IMG/VR virus record: IMGVR_UViG_3300032217_000958
Span: 1-48,469 of that record
Source: a virus
Direction: 5' to 3' (one strand)
DNA length: 48,469 nt
Made by a program: the position numbers and the translations under genes. The stretch's first letter is position 1. Every line of letters begins with the position of its first letter. Below the pieces are notes generated by a model. It was given only the letters and a program-made list of their open reading frames with translations, was not told the DNA's origin and searched no databases. Below are positions 2,901 through 48,469 of this stretch, in pieces.

Positions 2901-2984
2901 CTAGTGGCCGGTTATGCAACCGGCCATACCGACGATGAAAAAGAATAGCAGACTAAACGCTATACCTTGAAAGATTTCTTTCAT
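2901..2984 (-). CDS. 27-residue membrane micropeptide
   Basis: ATG at 2984 overlaps the stop of the zinc-ribbon gene by 4 bp (ATGA). The peptide opens with MKEIFQ, then has one hydrophobic span of about 17 residues (AFSLLFFFIVGMAG), and ends GCITGH. The stop is followed at once by the operon terminator, so the frame fits tightly between the upstream gene and the terminator, which supports it being real. It would be a single-span inner-membrane peptide with no recognised family. It is too short for most gene finders. Confidence 0.55.
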   Translation of the reverse strand: MKEIFQGIAFSLLFFFIVGMAGCITGH

Positions 2985-3256
2985 GGGTTATGCGACATCG
3001 TCTGCAGGACATAACGGTTTACCCAAAGATAAGTATCACCGTAAATCGAATGCGCGATAATGCAGGGAACGTCAATTCCTGATTTGTCGATAAAGACCTG
3101 CAAGAGGTCGTCACTGGTATCACCTTCGAAATTAAAACACTCGTCGCATCTCATAACTTGGCACCATGCATCATTGTTAGCACCCGGTACCGCGTCCTCA
3201 ATTGGCGCGCTTCCAACAATAAACCCGCGCCCGTTGCAACCTTCACACTTTGTCAT
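2981..3256 (-). CDS. small zinc-ribbon protein
   Basis: A 91-residue acidic protein that starts MTKCEGCNGRGF, a CxxCxGxGF knuckle like those of DnaJ zinc fingers, and has a second pair (RCDECF) around residues 36-41, so a four-Cys zinc ribbon is likely. The rest is acidic and unremarkable. ATG at 3256 follows AAAGG and lies 1 bp after the stop of a 29-residue membrane peptide, with the 27-residue peptide overlapping its 3' end. Function unknown; binding DNA, RNA or a protein partner is possible. Confidence 0.65.
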   Translation of the reverse strand: MTKCEGCNGRGFIVGSAPIEDAVPGANNDAWCQVMRCDECFNFEGDTSDDLLQVFIDKSGIDVPCIIAHSIYGDTYLWVNRYVLQTMSHNP

Positions 3257-4056: not shown

Positions 4057-4085
4057 AAAAACCGCGATGACGAGTCGCGGCTTTT
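4057..4085. terminator. bidirectional terminator
   Basis: Stem CCGCGA (4062-4067) with TCGCGG (4075-4080), loop of 7 nt, with five A residues before it and TTTT after it. It can work on both strands and insulates the plus-strand promoter that starts about 50 bp downstream. Confidence 0.65.
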
Positions 4086-4133
4086 CCGTTTGGTTGTTGT
4101 TGATGTTGCTCACTCCGTTAGGTTGTGGCTCTG

Positions 4134-4139
4134 TATAAT
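4134..4139 (+). promoter_or_regulatory. -10 box before the 200-residue gene
   Basis: A consensus TATAAT lies 21 bp before the chosen ATG at 4161. Transcription would start near 4146, just before the GGGAG ribosome site at 4147-4151. No good -35 hexamer is visible at the usual spacing. Because the box lies inside an upstream GTG-initiated extension of the frame, it argues for the downstream ATG. Confidence 0.6.
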
Positions 4140-4160
4140 ACCCTATGGGAGCTAACCGAT

Positions 4161-4763
4161 ATGCAGGCAGATAGAAAGACAGCGGCTGTGCGTAAGACGC
4201 AGGCGATTGCGCGTGAGAGTCGTATTAGTAACCCTGATACGTTTACTCCGCGTTCGGATCTTGGTTATGATGCTAGTAGTGAGCAGGGTAATACGTTTCG
4301 TGGCCGCCAGGTTTGGAGTCGCATGCGTAATAGTGGCGCTCCTGCTAGTGCGCGAATCAATCGTTCGATTCTAGCTGACAACAATATGATGAATGCGCGT
4401 GACGCAAAGACTGCGCGTATCGTGCGCAATAGGCTGTCGGCACGTCAAGTGTCTGCGCCCAGAGTAGACCCTATGGCAGCTGCAGCGAGCAGTAGGGTGT
4501 TGAGTGGAGTAATCCCGCGCGTAGGCCTAATGGCTGCCGCATTGACGGCGTCAAAACACACTGTGGATAATAATACGGAGATGGCGCTACTTGATCAGGC
4601 AAAGCGCGATAAACCAGACCTGGGCCGCTTGCGCCAGCTGGATGCAGTCAAGCGTGTACCTGCGGGTTTAGGTGACGTCAGGTTTGCAGATCGTAACATG
4701 TACGTACCAGAGCCTAGTTTCATCGCTCGTACTGTCGGGCAGACACAAAGGAGAGTTCGATAA
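4161..4763 (+). CDS. basic Ala/Arg-rich protein, possible virion component
   Basis: A 200-residue, strongly basic, Ala/Arg/Ser-rich protein without recognised domains. Around residues 105-135 it has a weak hydrophobic Ala-rich segment (VLSGVIPRVGLMAAAL), like those of the larger basic proteins at 12.1-15.2 kb. The start is set at 4161 because the promoter box lies upstream of it and GGGAG gives a proper ribosome site; a longer GTG-started form from 4125 would include the promoter. The stop overlaps the next gene (TAATG). Its character suggests a DNA- or capsid-associated protein, but this is inference. Confidence 0.7.
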   Translation: MQADRKTAAVRKTQAIARESRISNPDTFTPRSDLGYDASSEQGNTFRGRQVWSRMRNSGAPASARINRSILADNNMMNARDAKTARIVRNRLSARQVSAPRVDPMAAAASSRVLSGVIPRVGLMAAALTASKHTVDNNTEMALLDQAKRDKPDLGRLRQLDAVKRVPAGLGDVRFADRNMYVPEPSFIARTVGQTQRRVR

Positions 4764-5386: not shown

Positions 5387-6283
5387 TTAAATTTCCAACG
5401 TATCCGTTACAACTACACTAGCACCATTCCCTCTAACAGCATTAGGTTTAGATGTTTGTAAATTTAACATTAGTCCACCTTTAGGGAGAGTGGGAGAATC
5501 CCACAAGGCAGCGTAAGAATCTTTACGTCCATGTTTAATAAGATTTTCGCTTGTTGTTCCAGCATATGTATCAATGTACGATCCTGTCCTTAGAGTTAAC
5601 ACATCTCTGGTCTGTACTCTGTTTTCTGGCTTAAGCACACTTTTATGATAAACAACTTTACTATCACGTCCTGCTTGACGGTGGTGGGTATGCCCACGCC
5701 AAATAGCATCAGCACCTTCAATCCACATAGCAGCTCGCGAAAAGGTAATAGCACCTTTAGTCACAGGAGCTGCACCACCAGAACCGTGGTGATAGTGAAT
5801 AACATAATGCCCTACACGAGCTGGTTCTTTATATGGTCGCATCTGTATGTGAATAAAACCATGGTAGCCGCCATACTGAATCTTGCCAGTACCGTTATTA
5901 AGCATAACGACTAGTTGTTTAACCGGCTCTATATGATGATATCGTGCAACGCTATCATCATGGTTTCCGTCACCAATCATAATAATGTCGTCTTTGTATG
6001 GTTCTAGTATCTCGTAAGCCCATCTAATACTCTCACCCAGCATGTCATCTCCGGCGGAGAACATTCGTGGATGCAAATTATTAGCCCGGTATCTTTTGCG
6101 GTCACCGGGCATAATAGCGTCAAAAACATCACCGTTTATAAGGATTTTTGCTCCGCGTTTTTTAGCGGTTGTGAGTTCTTTCTCAATGAGGGAATAGTCC
6201 ACATGTAGACCACCAATATGGAGGTCACTCATTAAACACAGCAGTACGTCTGGTGTATCAACGCAATAGTCAATAACTGTCAT
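5387..6283 (-). CDS. calcineurin-like metallophosphoesterase
   Basis: A 298-residue protein carrying the full set of metallophosphoesterase motifs: SDLHIG (19-24), NGDVFD (50-55), GDGNHD (104-109), HYHHGSGG (about 165) and RGHTHH (about 197). These residues bind a two-metal centre that hydrolyses phosphoesters. It is longer than simple phosphatases; the exact substrate (DNA ends, cyclic nucleotides or phosphorylated proteins) cannot be told from the sequence. ATG at 6283 follows GAGGTGA. It has its own extended -10 promoter and shares a transcript with the nuclease gene downstream. A DNA-processing pair is a reasonable inference. Confidence 0.85.
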   Translation of the reverse strand: MTVIDYCVDTPDVLLCLMSDLHIGGLHVDYSLIEKELTTAKKRGAKILINGDVFDAIMPGDRKRYRANNLHPRMFSAGDDMLGESIRWAYEILEPYKDDIIMIGDGNHDDSVARYHHIEPVKQLVVMLNNGTGKIQYGGYHGFIHIQMRPYKEPARVGHYVIHYHHGSGGAAPVTKGAITFSRAAMWIEGADAIWRGHTHHRQAGRDSKVVYHKSVLKPENRVQTRDVLTLRTGSYIDTYAGTTSENLIKHGRKDSYAALWDSPTLPKGGLMLNLQTSKPNAVRGNGASVVVTDTLEI

Positions 6284-6570: not shown

Positions 6571-6813
6571 TTATTTCGTGTTTATTTGCACTGTACGTAC
6601 AGCGTTTTTACGCTTGATGTTATCCATTGCATAACTCACAGCGTAGATAAGTTCGGTGAACTCTGGGTTATTAATTCTGCCAACAACTTCTCTTGTCCCA
6701 TCTCGATCATAGACTAAATCAATGTATGGTTCGTCTGGGTTGTCAATAAAATGCTTATGTATAGCAGTGACAGCCAGGTACATATCGTCTTCAGTTGAAA
6801 TCTTAAATGTCAT
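6571..6813 (-). CDS. hypothetical 80-residue protein
   Basis: A small acidic/mixed protein with no recognised family, no membrane segment and no cysteines. It has the look of a compact alpha/beta domain (a helix near residues 9-22, then YIDLVYDRDG and VVGRI strands, then a long C-terminal helix ending in basic residues). Its ATG at 6813 overlaps the stop of the MT-A70 gene by 4 bp, so it is translated with the methyltransferase. A role with that enzyme is possible but unproven. Confidence 0.6.
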   Translation of the reverse strand: MTFKISTEDDMYLAVTAIHKHFIDNPDEPYIDLVYDRDGTREVVGRINNPEFTELIYAVSYAMDNIKRKNAVRTVQINTK

Positions 6814-7358
6814 TCCAATTCATTCCCCCATACGTCCCATCCTTCGTAAGGCCTACGTGCAAACATCTCTAGTTTTTCACCTCCAGGATAAAGTCTGTCT
6901 ATACGTTCGTGTATGTCGTCTGGCTTGCGGCTGTGTTCTTGCCTTGGCGCTAACACAACTTGACGCACAGACTCATCCATGAGCTTCATTGGTCGCCCTA
7001 CCTTAGTCAAACTGCCAGCTATAACTAACTCTGTAGTTGGCTTTATGATCGATGGGCGAACACCTTGCGCTCCTACCGGGGTTCCGTCTTTCTTTGTTTT
7101 GACCCACACGAAAGCAACTCCCCGGTAGACAAGTCCCCATGAGCGAAGAAGATCCATAGCTGCGTCTAAACGTGGGCAGGTAGCCCACATGAAGACCACA
7201 GAGGACGGTTTGAGCAACGACGGTACATCCAATGATCTAAGGTCATCATCGGTCATGGTCGTATAGAATTTACTAGCTGCTCCCCACTTGTCTTGTTGTC
7301 CAGTGTAAGACCAAGGTGGATCCATCAAGACTACGTCGTATTTTTTATCTGGAAGCAT
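6810..7358 (-). CDS. MT-A70 family N6-adenine methyltransferase
   Basis: A 182-residue S-adenosylmethionine-dependent methyltransferase of the MT-A70 type. The catalytic DPPW is at residues 13-16, followed by WGAASKFYTTMT (the KFY...M element), FMWATCPRLDAAMDLLRSWG (the typical FLWAT-like strand) and a C-terminal GRPMKLMDESV and HSRKPDDIHERI segment that is also characteristic. These enzymes methylate adenine in DNA in phages, often to evade restriction. There is no target-recognition domain, which is normal for the family. The wall hydrolase gene ends 13 bp upstream and the 80-residue gene overlaps downstream, forming one operon. Confidence 0.9.
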   Translation of the reverse strand: MLPDKKYDVVLMDPPWSYTGQQDKWGAASKFYTTMTDDDLRSLDVPSLLKPSSVVFMWATCPRLDAAMDLLRSWGLVYRGVAFVWVKTKKDGTPVGAQGVRPSIIKPTTELVIAGSLTKVGRPMKLMDESVRQVVLAPRQEHSRKPDDIHERIDRLYPGGEKLEMFARRPYEGWDVWGNELE

Positions 7359-39623: not shown

Positions 39624-42600
39624 ATGCGTATAGGACGTCCAACGGAAGATCAACGTGCAAATGCTATCAATAACTTGGTATATAGTCAGCCTGACCTTAC
39701 TACCAAAGATGGTGCATTAGAATACATAGCAAATGCTTCACGGTATGACAGGGTTCTGTTTTCCCGTAGATTCAAAGATACCATTGACGGCTTATATAAA
39801 GATGGTCTTGTAGATCAAGGTACACGCCAACAGCTCGCTAAGTTTAAAGCAGAGCGAGCTTTGGTGCTTGCTAATGATGAAGAAAAACGACAGCACTTTA
39901 CTCCTGAAAATGAGTATCGCCCAGACCTATCAGCTGAATCAATCCAAGCAAAACGTCAATCGTATAAAGAGTCTCTTGGTGAACAGATACCGCAGATACG
40001 CGCTGACGAAGAAAAGTACTTAGGTAAGTTAGGGTATGACCGTTCCGACGTAGAGAGGTTTGGCCCTGCTAGTCGTGGTCGCGCGCCAGAAGGTGCTGCG
40101 TTTATTGGTGGAACGGACTTTGATCCGGCATCAGGCAACTATACACTCCGAGACCTTGGCATAGGATTTAAGCAGGCACCACAGATTGCTGCAGGTATGA
40201 CTCAGGGTTTCTATAAACCTGTCGAAGCTGCGATTGACAAGCTTACTAATGCCGGCGGCATTGGTGCAGAAGCAGCGTATCAACAAGGTGAGGAACCACT
40301 ACAAGATGCTGGAGCTGCTTTTGGATCTGGTTATCAAGAGCGCCTATCCACCATGCCTGGCACTATATATGGTGGCGCTGGTGGTTCGCGTATTGGTGGA
40401 GCTTTGGGAGCATTGCTTCCTAAAAAATATAGGGGCGTTGGAATACTTACTGGGCGACTTTTAGGTGCAGCTGGCGGAGGCACACTTGGTACATCTATCA
40501 ACGAGACTATTAACAACAATGCCTTCGGTACTTTGCTCGGCTCTGCAGCAGATGCAGCTAGAACGGAATTTCGCCAGACTAATGCTTATGAATACCCGCT
40601 TGCCAGCCGAATGGGTTCACTTGCTGGCGACCTTACATTCTTCAAACCTACCCTGAAGATTCCAGGTGTAGGTGTAAAAGCAGCTGTTGAGCAGCTATCC
40701 AAGAAGGGTACACGCGCTCTTAAAAATACAGGTGTAAACAAAACTGTCAGCGATCTTGGCGACCGCTCGATTGAAGCAGCACAGGGTATGTACGAATCGT
40801 ACATGCAATCCGAACGTAATAAAGCTGCTGGTGGAGATGGTTATTCTCCATGGCAAATTATCGGCGATGGTTTGACTGGTGCATTACTTGGTGGGGAAAC
40901 ACCAATTGGTAAAGCAGCCTTCCATTTTGCTGAAAAGACTATGGATCCACGGTATTTGGCTAGTAAGCTTGCTGAAAAGCGTGACAACATGCTTGAAGCC
41001 AGAGCTGCCAAAGCTCCTATGGCTGAAAGTATTCCATCAGAGCCTAGCGATGGAATGATTCGTTTGAATTTAGGCGGCAAGTTGACTGGCGATACGGATG
41101 AATACGGGCGTCCTATTTTGCGTGGTGCAGAATACGCTTTGTACAACCCTAAGGCGCGCAAGGCGACTATACACGTCGATAACGAATTTCCTCTTGAGGG
41201 TAGGCGATCAGCATCTGCAGCCGAACGTTTGCAGACAGTGATGTATTTGTTTAAGCGTCAGCCTGTAATCTCATACACAGATAGCCGTAGTGGGATTACC
41301 CGTAATGTTATTGGTATTAGTCGTGATGCTGGAATTGTTGTACGTGACGTAAATCGTGATGGACGCAGCCGTGTTCAAGTTGTACCTATTACATCAATTG
41401 GTAATGCGCAAATCCGTAAGCGTGTAGGTGAAGTTCTTGCAGCACAAGGTGTAACCCCTAATACAAAGCCAGCTAATTTTGATCCCAATGTTTTTGATAA
41501 TGCAGATACACGGATATTTAAAGACAAGATACTGCTATCAAACGATCTACCGCTGTTTCCAGGGCGTGTTGTAAAACAAGTTGGTAACGACCGTCAAGGC
41601 ATGTATATAGTGTCGTTACCTGATGGTACTCACATCCGTTTGAATGAATCCCAGATCAATCCAGAGGATGCTGGTAAACCATATGTACGCGGTATGGTTC
41701 GTGATGAAGACCTACCTTCTTCCCTGGCTGAACTATCGCCAAGGCAACGCATCGGGCCTAATCAATGGCGGTTTGCTGATCCATCTGGTGCTGGTAATGC
41801 AGAAGTCGTTGAACTTACAGATGACCAGATGCGATTGCTTCGTCGTGGTCGCAGTGCTAGATCTGCTGAATGGGATGCCTATAAGTCTGAAGAAGACCCG
41901 GCAAAGCGAAATGCATTGCTTGAAATTTACCGAGCTAATGTAGCCAAGGATATTGAAGGTGATTTAAAATTTGAGCCTGCAGATGACCGTTTTGCTCGTG
42001 CAGATGTTATTGATGTACAGACTAAAGAATTTGGACGTGCTGTAGCAATAGTTGTCGGTAAGGGTGAAAGGGGTTACGTCGTAAGACTTGTAGATCATCC
42101 AACCAAGAGCGCATTTGTTGTACAGAATAGTCAAATCGTTGGCGATCACTTAGGTAATGATATTACTCCTGGAGTAGCTGAATCAGCGATAGGTGAAGAT
42201 GTAGATGGTGACGGAACCATTGGTGCTGTTGACGGCGAGGATACAGGTGATATTGCAGCGGCAGCTGGTATTACAGCTGATCGCGTTGACATTATTGAAC
42301 TGTCATCCACCACACGTACACGCCTTGGTACATCGTTAGCATCTGCTCTGGATACTATTGACTTTTCATCTTTACTTGATGGGTTCGACTTGTCTACACC
42401 TGAAGGTGAAGTAGATACTGAAACTGAAGGTGAACCACTAGCACCTGAAGCAGGCACTGAAGCTGAAACCGAAGCGTTGCCAGAGGTTATGCTTTCAGCT
42501 AGAGATGCTGAAACAGAGGTTGAAGCGCCAACGTCTCAATCCTTTGTTGCGCGTACACGATATAGCAATGTAGATGGAACCATCTATAGAACAGACGATG

Positions 42601-45600
42601 GTCATCTTGGACTTCGTGTCAAGCTTACAGAACTAGATGGTAAGGGTGCGCCTAAACGTGCGTTTGAGACAGAGTACATAATCATTCCACAACCTGATGG
42701 ATCATTTGATGTACATAATGCTGTCGATGGATTTGATCCTGCAAGAACACCTGAAGCTGTATACACACCAGCAGCTGGGACTGATCGCCGTGTTGCCGTC
42801 AATACAGCTATTCAGCGTACAGTTCAGTACGCGACTGGTCAAAGTATTCGTGACGCTAATTGGTTGGCAACAGCTAATATCGAAGCACCATCAGCAGCCG
42901 ATCTTGAAAAGAAGCGTAAAGCAGATGAACGTGAAGCTAAAGCAGCCGAAAGGCTTGCCGCTCGTGAGGAAGAAAGAGCTAAACGGGAAGCTGAACGAGA
43001 GCGTGATAGAGCTGAAGCAGCTCGGAGATTTGATGCAAACCTTGAACTACGTCGTCGAACTCAACAGCAAAATGCTGAACTGCGCGCAGCAGAAGTTGAG
43101 GTGGAACGCCTTAAAGCCGAAAACACGACACGTCTCAATGAAGCGCGCCAGCGACTAGCTGACCTGCAGGAACAGGCTAATAAAGACAAACAGGAAGCAC
43201 GTGCTGCACAGCAGGCATTGCAGCGTGAAATGAATCAGCTACGAGCTGATATGAATCGCGCAACAACTGAAGCACAAAGAGCAGCTACAGAGCAACAACG
43301 CCAGGCTGCAGAGACATTGCAGCGTGAGTTGGAGCGCCAGGCAAGAGAGTACGAAACGCAGATGCAGAATCTGCGGACAATCATTACTAACGGTACTCCA
43401 CAGAATGCATCGAACACCGCTGCTGTAGAAGAAGCAATTCGCCTTCTTACACAGAACATGACTACGCTCACAGACCGTCTAAATGAAATTGGATCTGGTC
43501 GAGCTGTCAGTGCTGAACAACAACGTGTTATTGATGAGCAGCTTGCTGCCCTTGAAGCTGATAGACAGCGACGTGAGCAAGAATATGCAGACACCCTTGC
43601 TGCAGTACAAGCTGAATTAGATGCATTGAAAGAGCAACTTGAGGAAGCACGTAAGGCTGCAGTAAACGCAGCGTATAACCGCGATGGTGGTGCCACTGGG
43701 CGTACACGGACACGACGAACCGCTTCGGAATCACGTCCAGTAAGAGTTGAGTATGGTGACATAAACAATAGTCGTCAAATCGAGACAATCACTACCGAAC
43801 TTTATGGTAATCGTGTTGAGGTTGATGCTACGACTGTTAGAAACCGTAATCAGTTTGAGACAGTCATGATTGAGCAATACAACTTTAGTCCTGAAGGCGC
43901 TAGTGCCTTTGGTGGTATCGTTGATCATTTTGCACGTGCCTGGGCTATGCGACAGCTAAATATTCGGAAGTCTAGGATTACTGGTACTGCGTCAGAATTA
44001 GAGACTAAACGTCGTGAAGATGAAACGGTTGAAGTTTACGATGAAGAAGGCAACCCAATTGAGGATGGGGTAGTTAGATCTATCTTGTCTACAGATAACG
44101 ATGCTGCTAAAAGTGTCGCGTTCTACATGCGAAAGTTCTATTCAGAACGATTGGCGTCGTTTGCTTTATTGCGCAATGCACCAGCATTGGATGCTATGGC
44201 TAATGCTCTTATCTTTAAAAGAGCTGCTGCAGAAGGCATGTCATCCAGTGTTATTGTTGGTCTATCTGCACGTAGTGTAGAAGACGGTATGCATGAAGTA
44301 TTTCATGCGTTACTGCGTGGCATGACTCCAGATGAACGTAAAAAATTCTATCAAGCACTGCGTTCCAATGTCAAAAACATGAACATTGACTTTGACAATG
44401 TACCTGCATCCGTAGAAGAAGAAGTTGTAGGAATGCTGATAGCTAGTATTCGCAACAACTCAATGCCAAGGATATTCCGTGGTTATAACCGCGAGACCAA
44501 CAAAGCACAATTCAGAAAGCCTAACAAGGACATTGCAAAGTTTTGGCGTGATTCCTCATCTTACTTGAATGGAACAGTTCAAAACGTAACACGTAAATTC
44601 ATTGACAATAAGCAGCTTGTTGAATGGAAGGCACCATACGACGGTCAAAGTAAACTGTATAAGGGTACGCAACTAGTCATTAAAGGTGCAGATGGCAAAG
44701 ATGCACTGGTCACCGTAAACGTCACGTCTACTACGGACATGGATTCGTATGAGCGTAACAAAGATAAGTATGGGACGTTGCCTCCAAATATAGTTGTTGT
44801 TAAAGATGCATCCGGTAATGTGTCGCAAATTACAAAAGACAAAATCGTCAAGTATGGAGGTTATACAAATGGCCTAAATCCTGAGATGTTGTCAGTACTG
44901 AGTGATTACCTTGGTGCGTATTACACACGCACTGACGAAGCTATGCGTGAGGTAGCACCTGAAGCGTTTGACGGCTTTAGTGATGAAACTCAACGTGACC
45001 TTGATGATTCAGGTGGCGATGATGATGATGCAGGCGATGAGCTTGACGATGACTTTAAGTACACCAGTATTGATGCGTATAAGGCAAATACTCCAGCTAA
45101 TCGTGTTGCTGGTCAACCGATCTACATCATTTATCCTGGGATGTCACAGAAATCTATTGAAGCTAATATTGACTTAGCTAAAACACTTGGTGTTCCTAAT
45201 CGCAATATTATTGTTTCCGATAACGTACGTCGATTTGATTATCGTGACGCAGGACGTGGTGAACGTGTCATATCAAGTGGCATGTCTAGAGGTAGGGATT
45301 CACAAGATGTATTGGGATTTGATATCTATTCCTACATCCAGGCTAGTCCTTCTTACGATGGTGCATCAAACGATGTTAAGTACGCTCAAATCCTAAAAAG
45401 TCCGGAGATCATTAACGCTATCAAGCGTTACATGAACAATGACCTTGGATATACAGCTGAACAAGTAGAAGCTGAACTGGCAAGGCCAAGGACAGGAACT
45501 GATTTGTCGTATGACAACATTAGTGAGAAGAACAACATAAAGCGCATAGCGTTTTTGATGTCTAGGTTTAAACAACCTGATGGTTCGTATGACGTGTCTA

Positions 45601-48469
45601 GGTCTAGTACCCAGGCAGGTGGCACTGTCGCTACAGGCATTGACCAGTTGTACGCTTACGCTACGCATGTTTGGAACAACCTTGATGGCGACTACGTTGT
45701 CAAGCAACTTGCAAACAATGGTGAAGTAGCTAAGTTCCTCAAGCCTGACTACCTTGGTGATGCTAAGACTTTTGGTGAAGTGTTCGGAAAAGTACTTGAG
45801 CATGTTGCAACTGGAAAGCCTGTTGCACTGAACGCTCCATCGTTACCTGTAGCTGACCGCTTGTTACCTATGCAAACAATGCGAGCATTCTTTGACCCAA
45901 GTAGTTACGTGACACACTTCCTTAATTCGCTTGGTTCTGACAGGAAGGCTAGAGTTGAGCAATTCCCTGAAGAAATCAGGAAAGCAATTGATGCTGTGCG
46001 CAATGTCGTCGGAGGTGTGGTTGGAGATCGTACTGGTATTTGGCATAGAGATCTAAATGAGATGCATCCTGCCGATGTTTTAGATCGAGCTGTAAAGAAG
46101 ATAATTGCCAATCGTATAAAAGAAATTGACGCACCTCATAGATTCAAAGATGAGGTTGAGATCAGTAATATTGAAACGTATTTACGTGGACGTTTATCAG
46201 TTAGTCTAGTTGAAGCTTCCAGGGCTGTATCAGAAATTTGGCAACTTAGCGCAGATACTGGACGTGGTGAATACCGCCGCTTCCTTCTTCCTGAGATGCG
46301 CGTTGAAGATCCGCAAACTGTTACGTTTGTCAAGTCTAAGGGTACATCTGATAATCCAAAGGGAACCGTCAAAGTTAACATGCTTACTGGTAAAGCAGTT
46401 ATCAATGTTGATGGTGAATGGCGAGACGCACCTGTTGTTGCGAATATGAATACGCCATGGAGTCGCAACTTCAACCGACAAGACTTGCTGAAATTGAATG
46501 ACATTCTCGTCCCAAGTAGACATTGGTGGACTGTTGCTATCATCAATGGAATTAGCGGTACGAATGAGCGAATGGCGAGTCTAGATGTACCTAAGTCCAT
46601 CATGTTCTCATCGCGCAAACCATTGATTAACGTTGAAACCCTAGATGTCGTGACTGACACAACATTGGGAACTGATGAAGTAAAATCACAAGTCCGTAAG
46701 GGGTACGCAGAGCTTGATAGGTCTGGTCGTATTCAGACTGACGCTGATGGCAAGGTAGTTGGCGCTTACGATACTAGAGGTAACGCATCACATACGTATC
46801 ACGTTTATACCAACGTCCTTCGTATGTCGCCGGCGCGCGCGATTGCACACTACGCAAGAACAGAATCCCCAGAGTTTAAGCGTTGGTCTAACGGCGCTCC
46901 GTTAATCGAGAGTGTTGTATCTGACGATAGCCGTATCAATGTCCCTCTTAAAGACCTTAGTCCAACACAGACAAAGGCTATTCGTAAACATATGTCCGGC
47001 CAGGAGATCCTACGTAAGTTGGATGAAATGGAAGGCACTACTGTTACAGATGATGACGTTGCAGAGCTTATAGTGGCGATGGATGACTACTATCGTGGTG
47101 AGCGATCTCCAACACACATTAAACGTGTTGCAGAACACGTTGCGTCAGATAACACCGCCAATAGAGTTTACTATGCTGGTGTTTCTAACGAACTAAATAG
47201 TGTGGCTGGAACTCAAGCTAAGTCATTCATGCGTGACAAAATGATGTACGACAGAGCAAGTGTACGTCCAAAGACAGGTAAGCCTATTGTTTCTATTGGT
47301 TATGTCCCTGGTGATGGAACAGCTCGGTGGCTTCCTTCGGCTCATGCGTACGTTATGCCATCTGGTGTAAGTAAGACGTCTGGTTTTAACAACAAACCAT
47401 ACTACGTACGTATGGATAACCCAGTGGTTATTGATATGGGTGGACGTGGTATCGCTGCTGCTGATGTAGAAGCTTTGTATAAGAAGCATCCAACACGAGA
47501 TGGCATAGTGTTATTGAACGTCAAGCATAGTGTTGGTGGAAACCATGAGTTACAAAACATATCAATTCCACGTAACAGTATTGCGCCATTGTCATTGGAT
47601 AAATGGAACACAGCTGACACAAAGAAGAAAGCTGATCGCACCGGCCCTGTGTTGTCCGTCATGCTTAGTTCACGCGATGACTTAGATATTGCACATGAGG
47701 TCGTAAGACCTCCGGTAAAGATAGCTTATGACTGGGGTGACGTTGAGCCAACTGCTAGTGTTACAGGTAAGTCTGAACGCACTACACCAAATAAGCCAGT
47801 CAACGTAGCTGACATGGGTGGATACATCATTGACCAGATGAATGATATTACTCGTCTTACACTCTCTGCTGACTTTGCATTTACTACACTACAGGCCGGT
47901 ATTATCCTCCTTACTAACCCAGCTGTTGGCTTCAAGGCACTTATTGCTGGCATGCGAGGCATGATGCCTAACCTGCAGATTGAACTACCTAACGGACAAA
48001 AGGTTGGTTACCGTAAGCTTGGACGTGAGCAGTTCCATGAGTATGGCAACACGTTGCGGCAGATGGATGTATACGAGGAAGCACGAGAGGCAGAGTTGCC
48101 GCTTTCAATGTTTGAAATTGATAGGCGGTTTGATGAAGTCAGAGAGCGTGAACTTTACAATCTGCGTCTGTGGAATCCAGAAGCAACAATTGACGATGTA
48201 CGTACAACATTAATGGACATCGACGAGTTGGGAACCAATGACGAATGGTACATGAAAAACCGTTTATCAGGTCACCTTCCAGGCCAGGGAATGTTTGAGC
48301 GATACAACATCCTTGTTCATGACACGATCCTGTTACTTCAATTTGACCAGATGAAGAAGTCGTTGATGGCGCACGGCTACGAGCCTGGAACTGAGAAGTA
48401 CAAAGTTGCGCTCCGTGATTCAGCTCGGATACTTGCGGTTAGTGTTGGTGATATCAAATATTCAACTAA
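39624..48469 (+). CDS. giant polyvalent-type virion protein, truncated at window end
   Basis: An open frame of at least 2948 codons that runs off the right end (too large to have been fully called in this window). Parts in order: helical N-terminus; Gly/Ala-rich hydrophobic stretch (about 248-308); Thr/Glu acidic linker (about 843-966); long charged coiled coil (about 1093-1349); a zincin-like domain with HEVFH at 1557-1561; acidic loops (about 1796-1811); an ADP-ribosyltransferase-like segment (about 2513-2673: YYVRMDNPVVIDMGG, ADVEALYKKH, GIVLLNVKHSVGG, ISIPRNSIAPL); and a C-terminal part (from about 2726) with ADFAFTTLQAGIILLTNP, known from large polyvalent phage proteins. Such proteins are packaged and injected with DNA and protect the incoming genome or reprogramme the host. 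Substrates unknown. Confidence 0.75.
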   Translation, partial: MRIGRPTEDQRANAINNLVYSQPDLTTKDGALEYIANASRYDRVLFSRRFKDTIDGLYKDGLVDQGTRQQLAKFKAERALVLANDEEKRQHFTPENEYRPDLSAESIQAKRQSYKESLGEQIPQIRADEEKYLGKLGYDRSDVERFGPASRGRAPEGAAFIGGTDFDPASGNYTLRDLGIGFKQAPQIAAGMTQGFYKPVEAAIDKLTNAGGIGAEAAYQQGEEPLQDAGAAFGSGYQERLSTMPGTIYGGAGGSRIGGALGALLPKKYRGVGILTGRLLGAAGGGTLGTSINETINNNAFGTLLGSAADAARTEFRQTNAYEYPLASRMGSLAGDLTFFKPTLKIPGVGVKAAVEQLSKKGTRALKNTGVNKTVSDLGDRSIEAAQGMYESYMQSERNKAAGGDGYSPWQIIGDGLTGALLGGETPIGKAAFHFAEKTMDPRYLASKLAEKRDNMLEARAAKAPMAESIPSEPSDGMIRLNLGGKLTGDTDEYGRPILRGAEYALYNPKARKATIHVDNEFPLEGRRSASAAERLQTVMYLFKRQPVISYTDSRSGITRNVIGISRDAGIVVRDVNRDGRSRVQVVPITSIGNAQIRKRVGEVLAAQGVTPNTKPANFDPNVFDNADTRIFKDKILLSNDLPLFPGRVVKQVGNDRQGMYIVSLPDGTHIRLNESQINPEDAGKPYVRGMVRDEDLPSSLAELSPRQRIGPNQWRFADPSGAGNAEVVELTDDQMRLLRRGRSARSAEWDAYKSEEDPAKRNALLEIYRANVAKDIEGDLKFEPADDRFARADVIDVQTKEFGRAVAIVVGKGERGYVVRLVDHPTKSAFVVQNSQIVGDHLGNDITPGVAESAIGEDVDGDGTIGAVDGEDTGDIAAAAGITADRVDIIELSSTTRTRLGTSLASALDTIDFSSLLDGFDLSTPEGEVDTETEGEPLAPEAGTEAETEALPEVMLSARDAETEVEAPTSQSFVARTRYSNVDGTIYRTDDGHLGLRVKLTELDGKGAPKRAFETEYIIIPQPDGSFDVHNAVDGFDPARTPEAVYTPAAGTDRRVAVNTAIQRTVQYATGQSIRDANWLATANIEAPSAADLEKKRKADEREAKAAERLAAREEERAKREAERERDRAEAARRFDANLELRRRTQQQNAELRAAEVEVERLKAENTTRLNEARQRLADLQEQANKDKQEARAAQQALQREMNQLRADMNRATTEAQRAATEQQRQAAETLQRELERQAREYETQMQNLRTIITNGTPQNASNTAAVEEAIRLLTQNMTTLTDRLNEIGSGRAVSAEQQRVIDEQLAALEADRQRREQEYADTLAAVQAELDALKEQLEEARKAAVNAAYNRDGGATGRTRTRRTASESRPVRVEYGDINNSRQIETITTELYGNRVEVDATTVRNRNQFETVMIEQYNFSPEGASAFGGIVDHFARAWAMRQLNIRKSRITGTASELETKRREDETVEVYDEEGNPIEDGVVRSILSTDNDAAKSVAFYMRKFYSERLASFALLRNAPALDAMANALIFKRAAAEGMSSSVIVGLSARSVEDGMHEVFHALLRGMTPDERKKFYQALRSNVKNMNIDFDNVPASVEEEVVGMLIASIRNNSMPRIFRGYNRETNKAQFRKPNKDIAKFWRDSSSYLNGTVQNVTRKFIDNKQLVEWKAPYDGQSKLYKGTQLVIKGADGKDALVTVNVTSTTDMDSYERNKDKYGTLPPNIVVVKDASGNVSQITKDKIVKYGGYTNGLNPEMLSVLSDYLGAYYTRTDEAMREVAPEAFDGFSDETQRDLDDSGGDDDDAGDELDDDFKYTSIDAYKANTPANRVAGQPIYIIYPGMSQKSIEANIDLAKTLGVPNRNIIVSDNVRRFDYRDAGRGERVISSGMSRGRDSQDVLGFDIYSYIQASPSYDGASNDVKYAQILKSPEIINAIKRYMNNDLGYTAEQVEAELARPRTGTDLSYDNISEKNNIKRIAFLMSRFKQPDGSYDVSRSSTQAGGTVATGIDQLYAYATHVWNNLDGDYVVKQLANNGEVAKFLKPDYLGDAKTFGEVFGKVLEHVATGKPVALNAPSLPVADRLLPMQTMRAFFDPSSYVTHFLNSLGSDRKARVEQFPEEIRKAIDAVRNVVGGVVGDRTGIWHRDLNEMHPADVLDRAVKKIIANRIKEIDAPHRFKDEVEISNIETYLRGRLSVSLVEASRAVSEIWQLSADTGRGEYRRFLLPEMRVEDPQTVTFVKSKGTSDNPKGTVKVNMLTGKAVINVDGEWRDAPVVANMNTPWSRNFNRQDLLKLNDILVPSRHWWTVAIINGISGTNERMASLDVPKSIMFSSRKPLINVETLDVVTDTTLGTDEVKSQVRKGYAELDRSGRIQTDADGKVVGAYDTRGNASHTYHVYTNVLRMSPARAIAHYARTESPEFKRWSNGAPLIESVVSDDSRINVPLKDLSPTQTKAIRKHMSGQEILRKLDEMEGTTVTDDDVAELIVAMDDYYRGERSPTHIKRVAEHVASDNTANRVYYAGVSNELNSVAGTQAKSFMRDKMMYDRASVRPKTGKPIVSIGYVPGDGTARWLPSAHAYVMPSGVSKTSGFNNKPYYVRMDNPVVIDMGGRGIAAADVEALYKKHPTRDGIVLLNVKHSVGGNHELQNISIPRNSIAPLSLDKWNTADTKKKADRTGPVLSVMLSSRDDLDIAHEVVRPPVKIAYDWGDVEPTASVTGKSERTTPNKPVNVADMGGYIIDQMNDITRLTLSADFAFTTLQAGIILLTNPAVGFKALIAGMRGMMPNLQIELPNGQKVGYRKLGREQFHEYGNTLRQMDVYEEAREAELPLSMFEIDRRFDEVRERELYNLRLWNPEATIDDVRTTLMDIDELGTNDEWYMKNRLSGHLPGQGMFERYNILVHDTILLLQFDQMKKSLMAHGYEPGTEKYKVALRDSARILAVSVGDIKYST

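Follow-up and report, generated by a model that had tools for sequence, protein, structure and literature searches.

What kind of protein does the giant reading frame at the end of this viral contig encode, and what might it do as infection begins? The window, that is, the whole 48,469-nucleotide stretch of DNA that we analysed, closes with a frame on the + strand (39624..48469) that begins with ATG and runs free of stop codons for 2948 codons (39624-48467) up to the contig end, in agreement with the initial annotation of a frame of at least that length standing last in a structural operon. The true C-terminus could be reached in a twin contig, L002 (IMGVR_UViG_3300013212_000047), which is 95% identical over the matched stretch and whose whole gene encodes 3280 amino acids; compared with it, the window copy is shorter by about 332 C-terminal residues. 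Genes for terminase, portal and major head protein lie upstream of the giant gene. The next genes downstream in L002 are on the opposite strand and encode a DnaB helicase, an O-like initiator, and Gam-like and Erf-like proteins, and because these replication genes converge on its 3' end the giant gene is the last one of a rightward late operon, so that the operon position first proposed also holds in the full-length copy. The product is a giant multidomain protein that is probably virion-borne. Elsewhere in the window, the minus strand carries an MT-A70-type adenine methyltransferase gene (6810-7358; E 1.8e-28) and a calcineurin-like phosphoesterase gene (5387-6283).

Searches of the giant frame against Pfam, PHROGs and the PDB yielded no match other than a coiled-coil one (FlxA). 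Scans of viral contigs identified relatives belonging to at least six lineages, with lengths ranging between 2842 and 4553 amino acids and with a C-terminal domain common to them: L003 and L004 (2842), L006, L007 and L013 (3313), L008 (3315; L014 is incomplete), L009 (3686), L040, L042 and L043 (about 4072-4434), L019 (4553) and L015 (at least 3835). This C-terminal domain, of which the first 224 residues are in the window (47796..48467, +) and about 330 more in L002, is the best-conserved part in the alignments, showing 60-72% identity between most lineages; two remote relatives, L028 and L029, keep it and are missing the HEXXH motif discussed below. The cultured phage collection held no relative of the window protein and none of L015, the matches listed for L019 among cultured phages all fell on its methylase domain, and a profile of the C-terminal domain found no relative in the bacterial genome collection. 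The LPD38 model did not match the C-terminal domain, nor did it match the control.

Alignment of the relatives allowed us to divide the protein into regions, all on the + strand. Residues 1-470 (39624..41033) are conserved in the family and include a Gly/Ala-rich part at 250-315, and a second conserved region follows at residues 470-850 (41031..42173). SH3-like repeat units considered at residues 540-845 were above shuffles in one of six comparisons and are not claimed. The coiled coil expected from the initial annotation agrees with the residue composition of a coiled-coil or low-complexity stretch at about residues 1095-1350 (42906..43673), which is almost missing from L003 and L004. Residues 1800-2320 (45021..46583) make up a long region with an unreliable structure model, present in L002, L007, L008 and L009 and mostly missing from L003 and L040.

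Between the coiled-coil stretch and this long region lies a zincin-like region, residues 1395-1650 (43806..44573, +). Its HEVFH motif is placed exactly where it had been reported, at residues 1557-1561 (44292..44306). A lone HEXXH is weak evidence, since chance alone produced one in 35 out of 2000 shufflings of the giant frame, but H1557, E1558, H1561, A1562 and E1599 are invariant in a 10-member alignment and again among 13 sequences, with identity down to 18-30% in these alignments, and HExxHA followed by a Glu some 35-45 residues downstream is kept in 13 family sequences; the motif is therefore not due to chance. Within the pair E1598-E1599 (44415..44420), the alignment and a predicted helix point to E1599 as the candidate third zinc ligand. 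Compared as profiles, this region and the zincin of N4-like virion RNA polymerases scored 35.8 (E 7e-4), with none of 60 column shuffles as good (best shuffle score 22.1). The AF2 model of the zincin segment, which is of low confidence (mean pLDDT 51.5) and had no zincin among its Foldseek matches, puts HEVFH (helix 1552-1565) and E1598-E1599 (helix 1595-1610) on successive helices; the zincin-like peptidases of polyvalent proteins are described in PMC5512222 as having HEXXH on one helix and the Glu on the next. The MPTase-PolyVal model (PF18818) did not match the window protein at E<=10, and since it missed the N4 and RPP1 records too, it covers only part of such peptidases. Taking the invariant HExxHA and E1599 together with the N4 profile match, the zincin motif first noted is well supported, and we consider it very likely that residues 1395-1650 are a zincin, which would bind zinc. 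It is the sole well-supported enzyme within the window protein itself. Just after it, the best-modelled part of the protein is a small barrel at residues ~1656-1752 (44589..44879, +), with pLDDT of 67-82 in most blocks and Foldseek matches at E 0.02-0.1 and a target TM of ~0.7, values that are suggestive only of an SH3/Tudor-like fold.

The match to N4 raises the alternative that the protein is a divergent virion RNA polymerase resembling N4 gp50, as its size, its position closing the late operon and its zincin profile would all suggest. The remaining comparisons argue against this: no vRNAP Pfam domain was found, the profile of the polymerase part reached only E 0.71, the C-terminal domains were unmatched (E 0.62), and the upstream proteins of 144, 462 and 608 amino acids matched N4 gp51/gp52 no better than shuffles did. 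With no T7-like polymerase domain, C-terminal match or neighbour match, we rejected this identity, which we regard as extremely improbable.

The second enzyme proposed in the initial annotation was an ADP-ribosyltransferase (ART)-like domain at about residues 2513-2673, in the area where we find a conserved helical part followed by an ART-like segment (residues 2355-2660; 46686..47603, +). The segment itself stands, being conserved in nine relatives with the consensus [RK]TG..[VF]V....P..........SG.....G......Y[VI][RK]..NP.V.[DN].......RD[GS][IV]V.LN...H, and its core at residues 2545-2655 (47256..47588, +) consists of the strands Y[VI]R..NP.V.D and RDG[IV]V.LN. True ARTs of roseophage virion polymerases follow the pattern YHGT...FLTTRKG..REYA...V.L.NPL...YDGI.L.N, and the local profile match to them was equalled by none of 60 shuffles in either of two set-ups; the correspondence covers only the NP and DG strands, about 41 columns in the second half of the segment. 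According to PMC5512222, the active-site set of ARTs comprises an H in strand 1, a Y in strand 2 and a D in strand 5. The catalytic Asp (RDG) is kept in our family, whereas the His (YHG, strand 1) and the Tyr (strand 2) are missing in all aligned relatives. The ART-PolyVal model (PF18760) matched none of 13 family records and did match the two vRNAPs that served as positive control, and the structure model of the segment (mean pLDDT 45) is unreliable and gives no ART support. Because only two strands are matched and the H and Y are missing, the segment is perhaps a degenerate ART fold, at best a remnant of one, and judged by its sequence it is probably inactive as an ADP-ribosyltransferase. 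The initial annotation suggested that the protein, if injected, could cleave or modify host proteins of defence or transcription at the outset of infection, which would make it a bifunctional effector whose metalloprotease and ADP-ribosyltransferase are both active. The shuffle-tested roseophage match and the retained Asp of the H-Y-D set speak for such a protein; the shortness of the match, the failure of PF18760 and the loss of YHG and of the strand-2 Tyr from every segment-bearing relative speak against it, and make it a very improbable account.

If the window protein has one well-supported enzyme, its relatives have more. They carry cargo domains after the ART-like segment and ahead of the C-terminal domain. 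In L003 and L004 this slot is occupied by what looks like a complete C5-cytosine DNA methylase (E 4.8e-26 and 3e-26). PF00145 is matched at E 3e-26 to 6e-18 in L003, L004, L040, L042 and L043, and four members of the six-member set A9 have a match to it. Methylase motifs I, IV (with the catalytic Cys), VI (ENV), VIII and X, in the form of the strings FSGGG, SPVC, IENV, R.RL..RA and NGVP, are present in L003, L004, L040, L042 and L043, and in L019 the same patterns pick out motifs I and IV. The methylase is followed by a P-loop (AAA_33) domain in L040 and L042 and by MerR-type helix-turn-helix matches in L043. No methylase, P-loop or MerR cargo was found in the window protein, L002, L007, L008 or L009, and these cargo-free members have instead a long region before the ART-like part. 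The methylase of L003 (L003:14300-15200; residues ~1932-2221) is an apparently complete one embedded in a giant late protein, and embedded methylases of this type likewise occur in L004, L019, L040, L042 and L043.

How might such regions be separated from one another? In the window protein a short motif, [IV]M[LF]S[SA]R, occurs three times, around residues 958, 2329 and 2682: VMLSARD after the conserved N-terminal part (residues 955-961; 42486..42506, +), IMFSSRK before the helical and ART-like part (residues 2326-2332; 46599..46619, +) and VMLSSRD before the C-terminal domain (residues 2679-2685; 47658..47678, +). At the matching borders the relatives have motifs of their own, such as AYQE and M[FY]xxVD, with FMFERVDSGDD and VMYERVDSTDD in L007, EEIALSGKLP and EDVAFMGRMP in L009, and MAYQTD, ITFQTN and MAFQST in L003. 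This is the pattern to be expected if one agent per phage must recognise all the borders, which would then be alike within a protein and differ between phages. No clear matching border motifs were seen in L028 and L029. A different kind of repetition is present in L009, where residues 878-1125 hold an internal duplication above shuffles (IPFYCSSG...PPGKWYPFFG / IPFYCSTG...NPGQWYPFFG).

Repetition in the L040 lineage goes well beyond chance. L040 has five copies of [VA]A[FY]QE as against 0.013 expected by shuffling, and in an untargeted comparison the best motif triple of L040, L042 and L043 scored 69-70 versus 54-56 for the best shuffle. The copies also bracket cargo: in L042 copies at 2902 and 3060 enclose the P-loop domain (2915-3053), the first lying 13 residues before it and the second 7 after it, and the MerR-type matches of L043 sit between copies at 3217 and 3561. 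AYQE-type repeats thus placed around swappable domains after the C5-methylase were observed at L040:9195-12885, in L042 and at L043:7563-12207, an arrangement suggestive of cassettes swapped between motif boundaries. Hand-picked copies gave 12/5000 in a permutation test, which was set aside because it was biased by selection, and we relied instead on a pairing test that used two fixed border regions of six lineages (720 pairings) and no preselected motifs, the motif itself having been noticed beforehand. The own-protein pairing ranked first of 720 at length 10 and seventh at length 8, both significant; at length 6 it ranked 149th, which is not significant, and L019 and L003 showed a weak within-protein match.

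These figures bear on an alternative in which a polyvalent ejection protein of the ordinary sort does not process itself, its zincin serving as an effector against host proteins and its motifs being an incidental similarity of linkers. An effector role of the zincin domain is allowed by Iyer et al. (PMC5512222), and within the window protein alone the three copies do not exceed the untargeted shuffle test. The repetition in the L040 lineage, however, is far above chance and brackets cargo, and the pairing test gave rank 1/720 at length 10. This alternative appears unlikely while deserving more weight than the others. As judged from sequence, the simplest agent to recognise the borders would be a cutting protease, and the giant protein has a zincin site. 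The motifs might instead be sites for a separate prohead-type protease acting in trans, as in giant phages where such a protease cuts head and ejection proteins; for SPN3US, a phage rich in ejection proteins, cleavage by the prohead protease during head assembly is reported (PMC10052503 and PMC7411985). Six-frame translation of the whole window confined the motif pattern to the giant frame, no other window protein having it, and none of the structural genes compared with PHROGs, several of which matched nothing, was identified as a prohead protease; we hold a protease in trans to be decidedly improbable. The motifs could also be docking signals, packaging signals or recombination seams.

Taking all these results together, we favour a polyvalent-type protein, packaged and ejected, whose zincin cuts its own chain at the border motifs, which has a slot for cargo and whose ART-like part is inactive; as a joint explanation of the observations we rate it a little short of an even chance. 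The phage is tailed and probably podovirus-like. The giant protein would be a late product that probably goes into the head and leaves it together with the DNA. The zincin (HEVFH and E1599) would most likely cut its own polypeptide at the repeated border sites, and cleavage within the [IV]M[LF]S[SA]R copies would release four units of ~105, 154, 39 and 66 kDa (sizes taken from L002). In the relatives, the C5-methylase, P-loop or MerR domains of the cargo slot might serve protection or takeover as infection starts. A bolder form of this proposal, a virion polyprotein in which a structural or ejection backbone holds an embedded zincin and swappable cargo and in which the repeated cut site co-diverges in each phage, seems to us possible and yet rather unlikely. 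If true, cargo would be swappable between fixed cut sites in the manner of eukaryotic viral polyproteins. For zincin-bearing polyvalent proteins, in which the zincin is the commonest domain, autoprocessing has been proposed, and P1 DdrB is processed before packaging, while the N4 vRNAP, with a comparable zincin site, is reported to be packaged unprocessed, which counts against self-cutting (all from PMC5512222). In the open-access literature we found cutting by the zincin of polyvalent proteins as a proposal and no demonstration of it. With candidate cut sites now named in several independent phages, the self-processing proposal becomes directly testable.

How does this protein compare with known systems? 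N4-like gp50 of Schitoviridae is likewise giant, last in the late operon and endowed with an HEXXH zincin region with a downstream Glu, but the window protein is without the polymerase domain, a matching C-terminal domain and related neighbours among those tested. Head-packaged proteins of SPN3US and phiKZ-like phages are proteolysed as well (PMC10052503 and PMC7411985), by a protease in trans, whereas the window protein has a metalloprotease-like site within itself. The likeness to P1 DdrB, processed as mentioned above, and to DarA and Hdf, attached within the head according to PMC12810830, is one of theme and comes from the literature. The initial annotation knew of no characterised phage with this order of domains; a zincin-like peptidase and an ART in one giant phage protein are, however, already described for polyvalent proteins in PMC5512222, and the vRNAP of Roseovarius Plymouth podovirus 1 has in one chain an ART-PolyVal match (E 9.8e-9) and, behind it, one to M90/SprT-type metallopeptidases (E 6.9e-6). 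In this vRNAP (L046), the M90/SprT match falls at 1252-1387, between the ART and polymerase domains, and is additional to the C-terminal zincin region. Because the zincin and ART combination is known and a vRNAP identity was rejected, we assign the window protein to the class of polyvalent proteins. With these, as PMC5512222 presents them, it shares a very long multidomain chain, a zincin hub, an ART-like part, a late-gene context by virion structural genes and, here in its relatives, cargo enzymes acting on DNA; several unrelated enzymatic domains per chain, which define the class, are found when the zincin of the window protein is taken with the C5-methylase, P-loop and MerR domains of the relatives. 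It differs from them in matching none of the ART-PolyVal, MPTase-PolyVal and LPD38 models. Repeated phage-specific border motifs find no mention in the available passages of PMC5512222, an earlier description being possible since our comparison covers the open-access literature; the word cytosine occurs in that paper only in the reference list, and the methylases in its available passages are adenine ones. C5-cytosine methylation would thereby join the list of cargo that such proteins may deliver, and what is less expected in this family is the phage-specific border motifs and the C5-methylase, P-loop and MerR cargo that its members carry after the ART-like segment.
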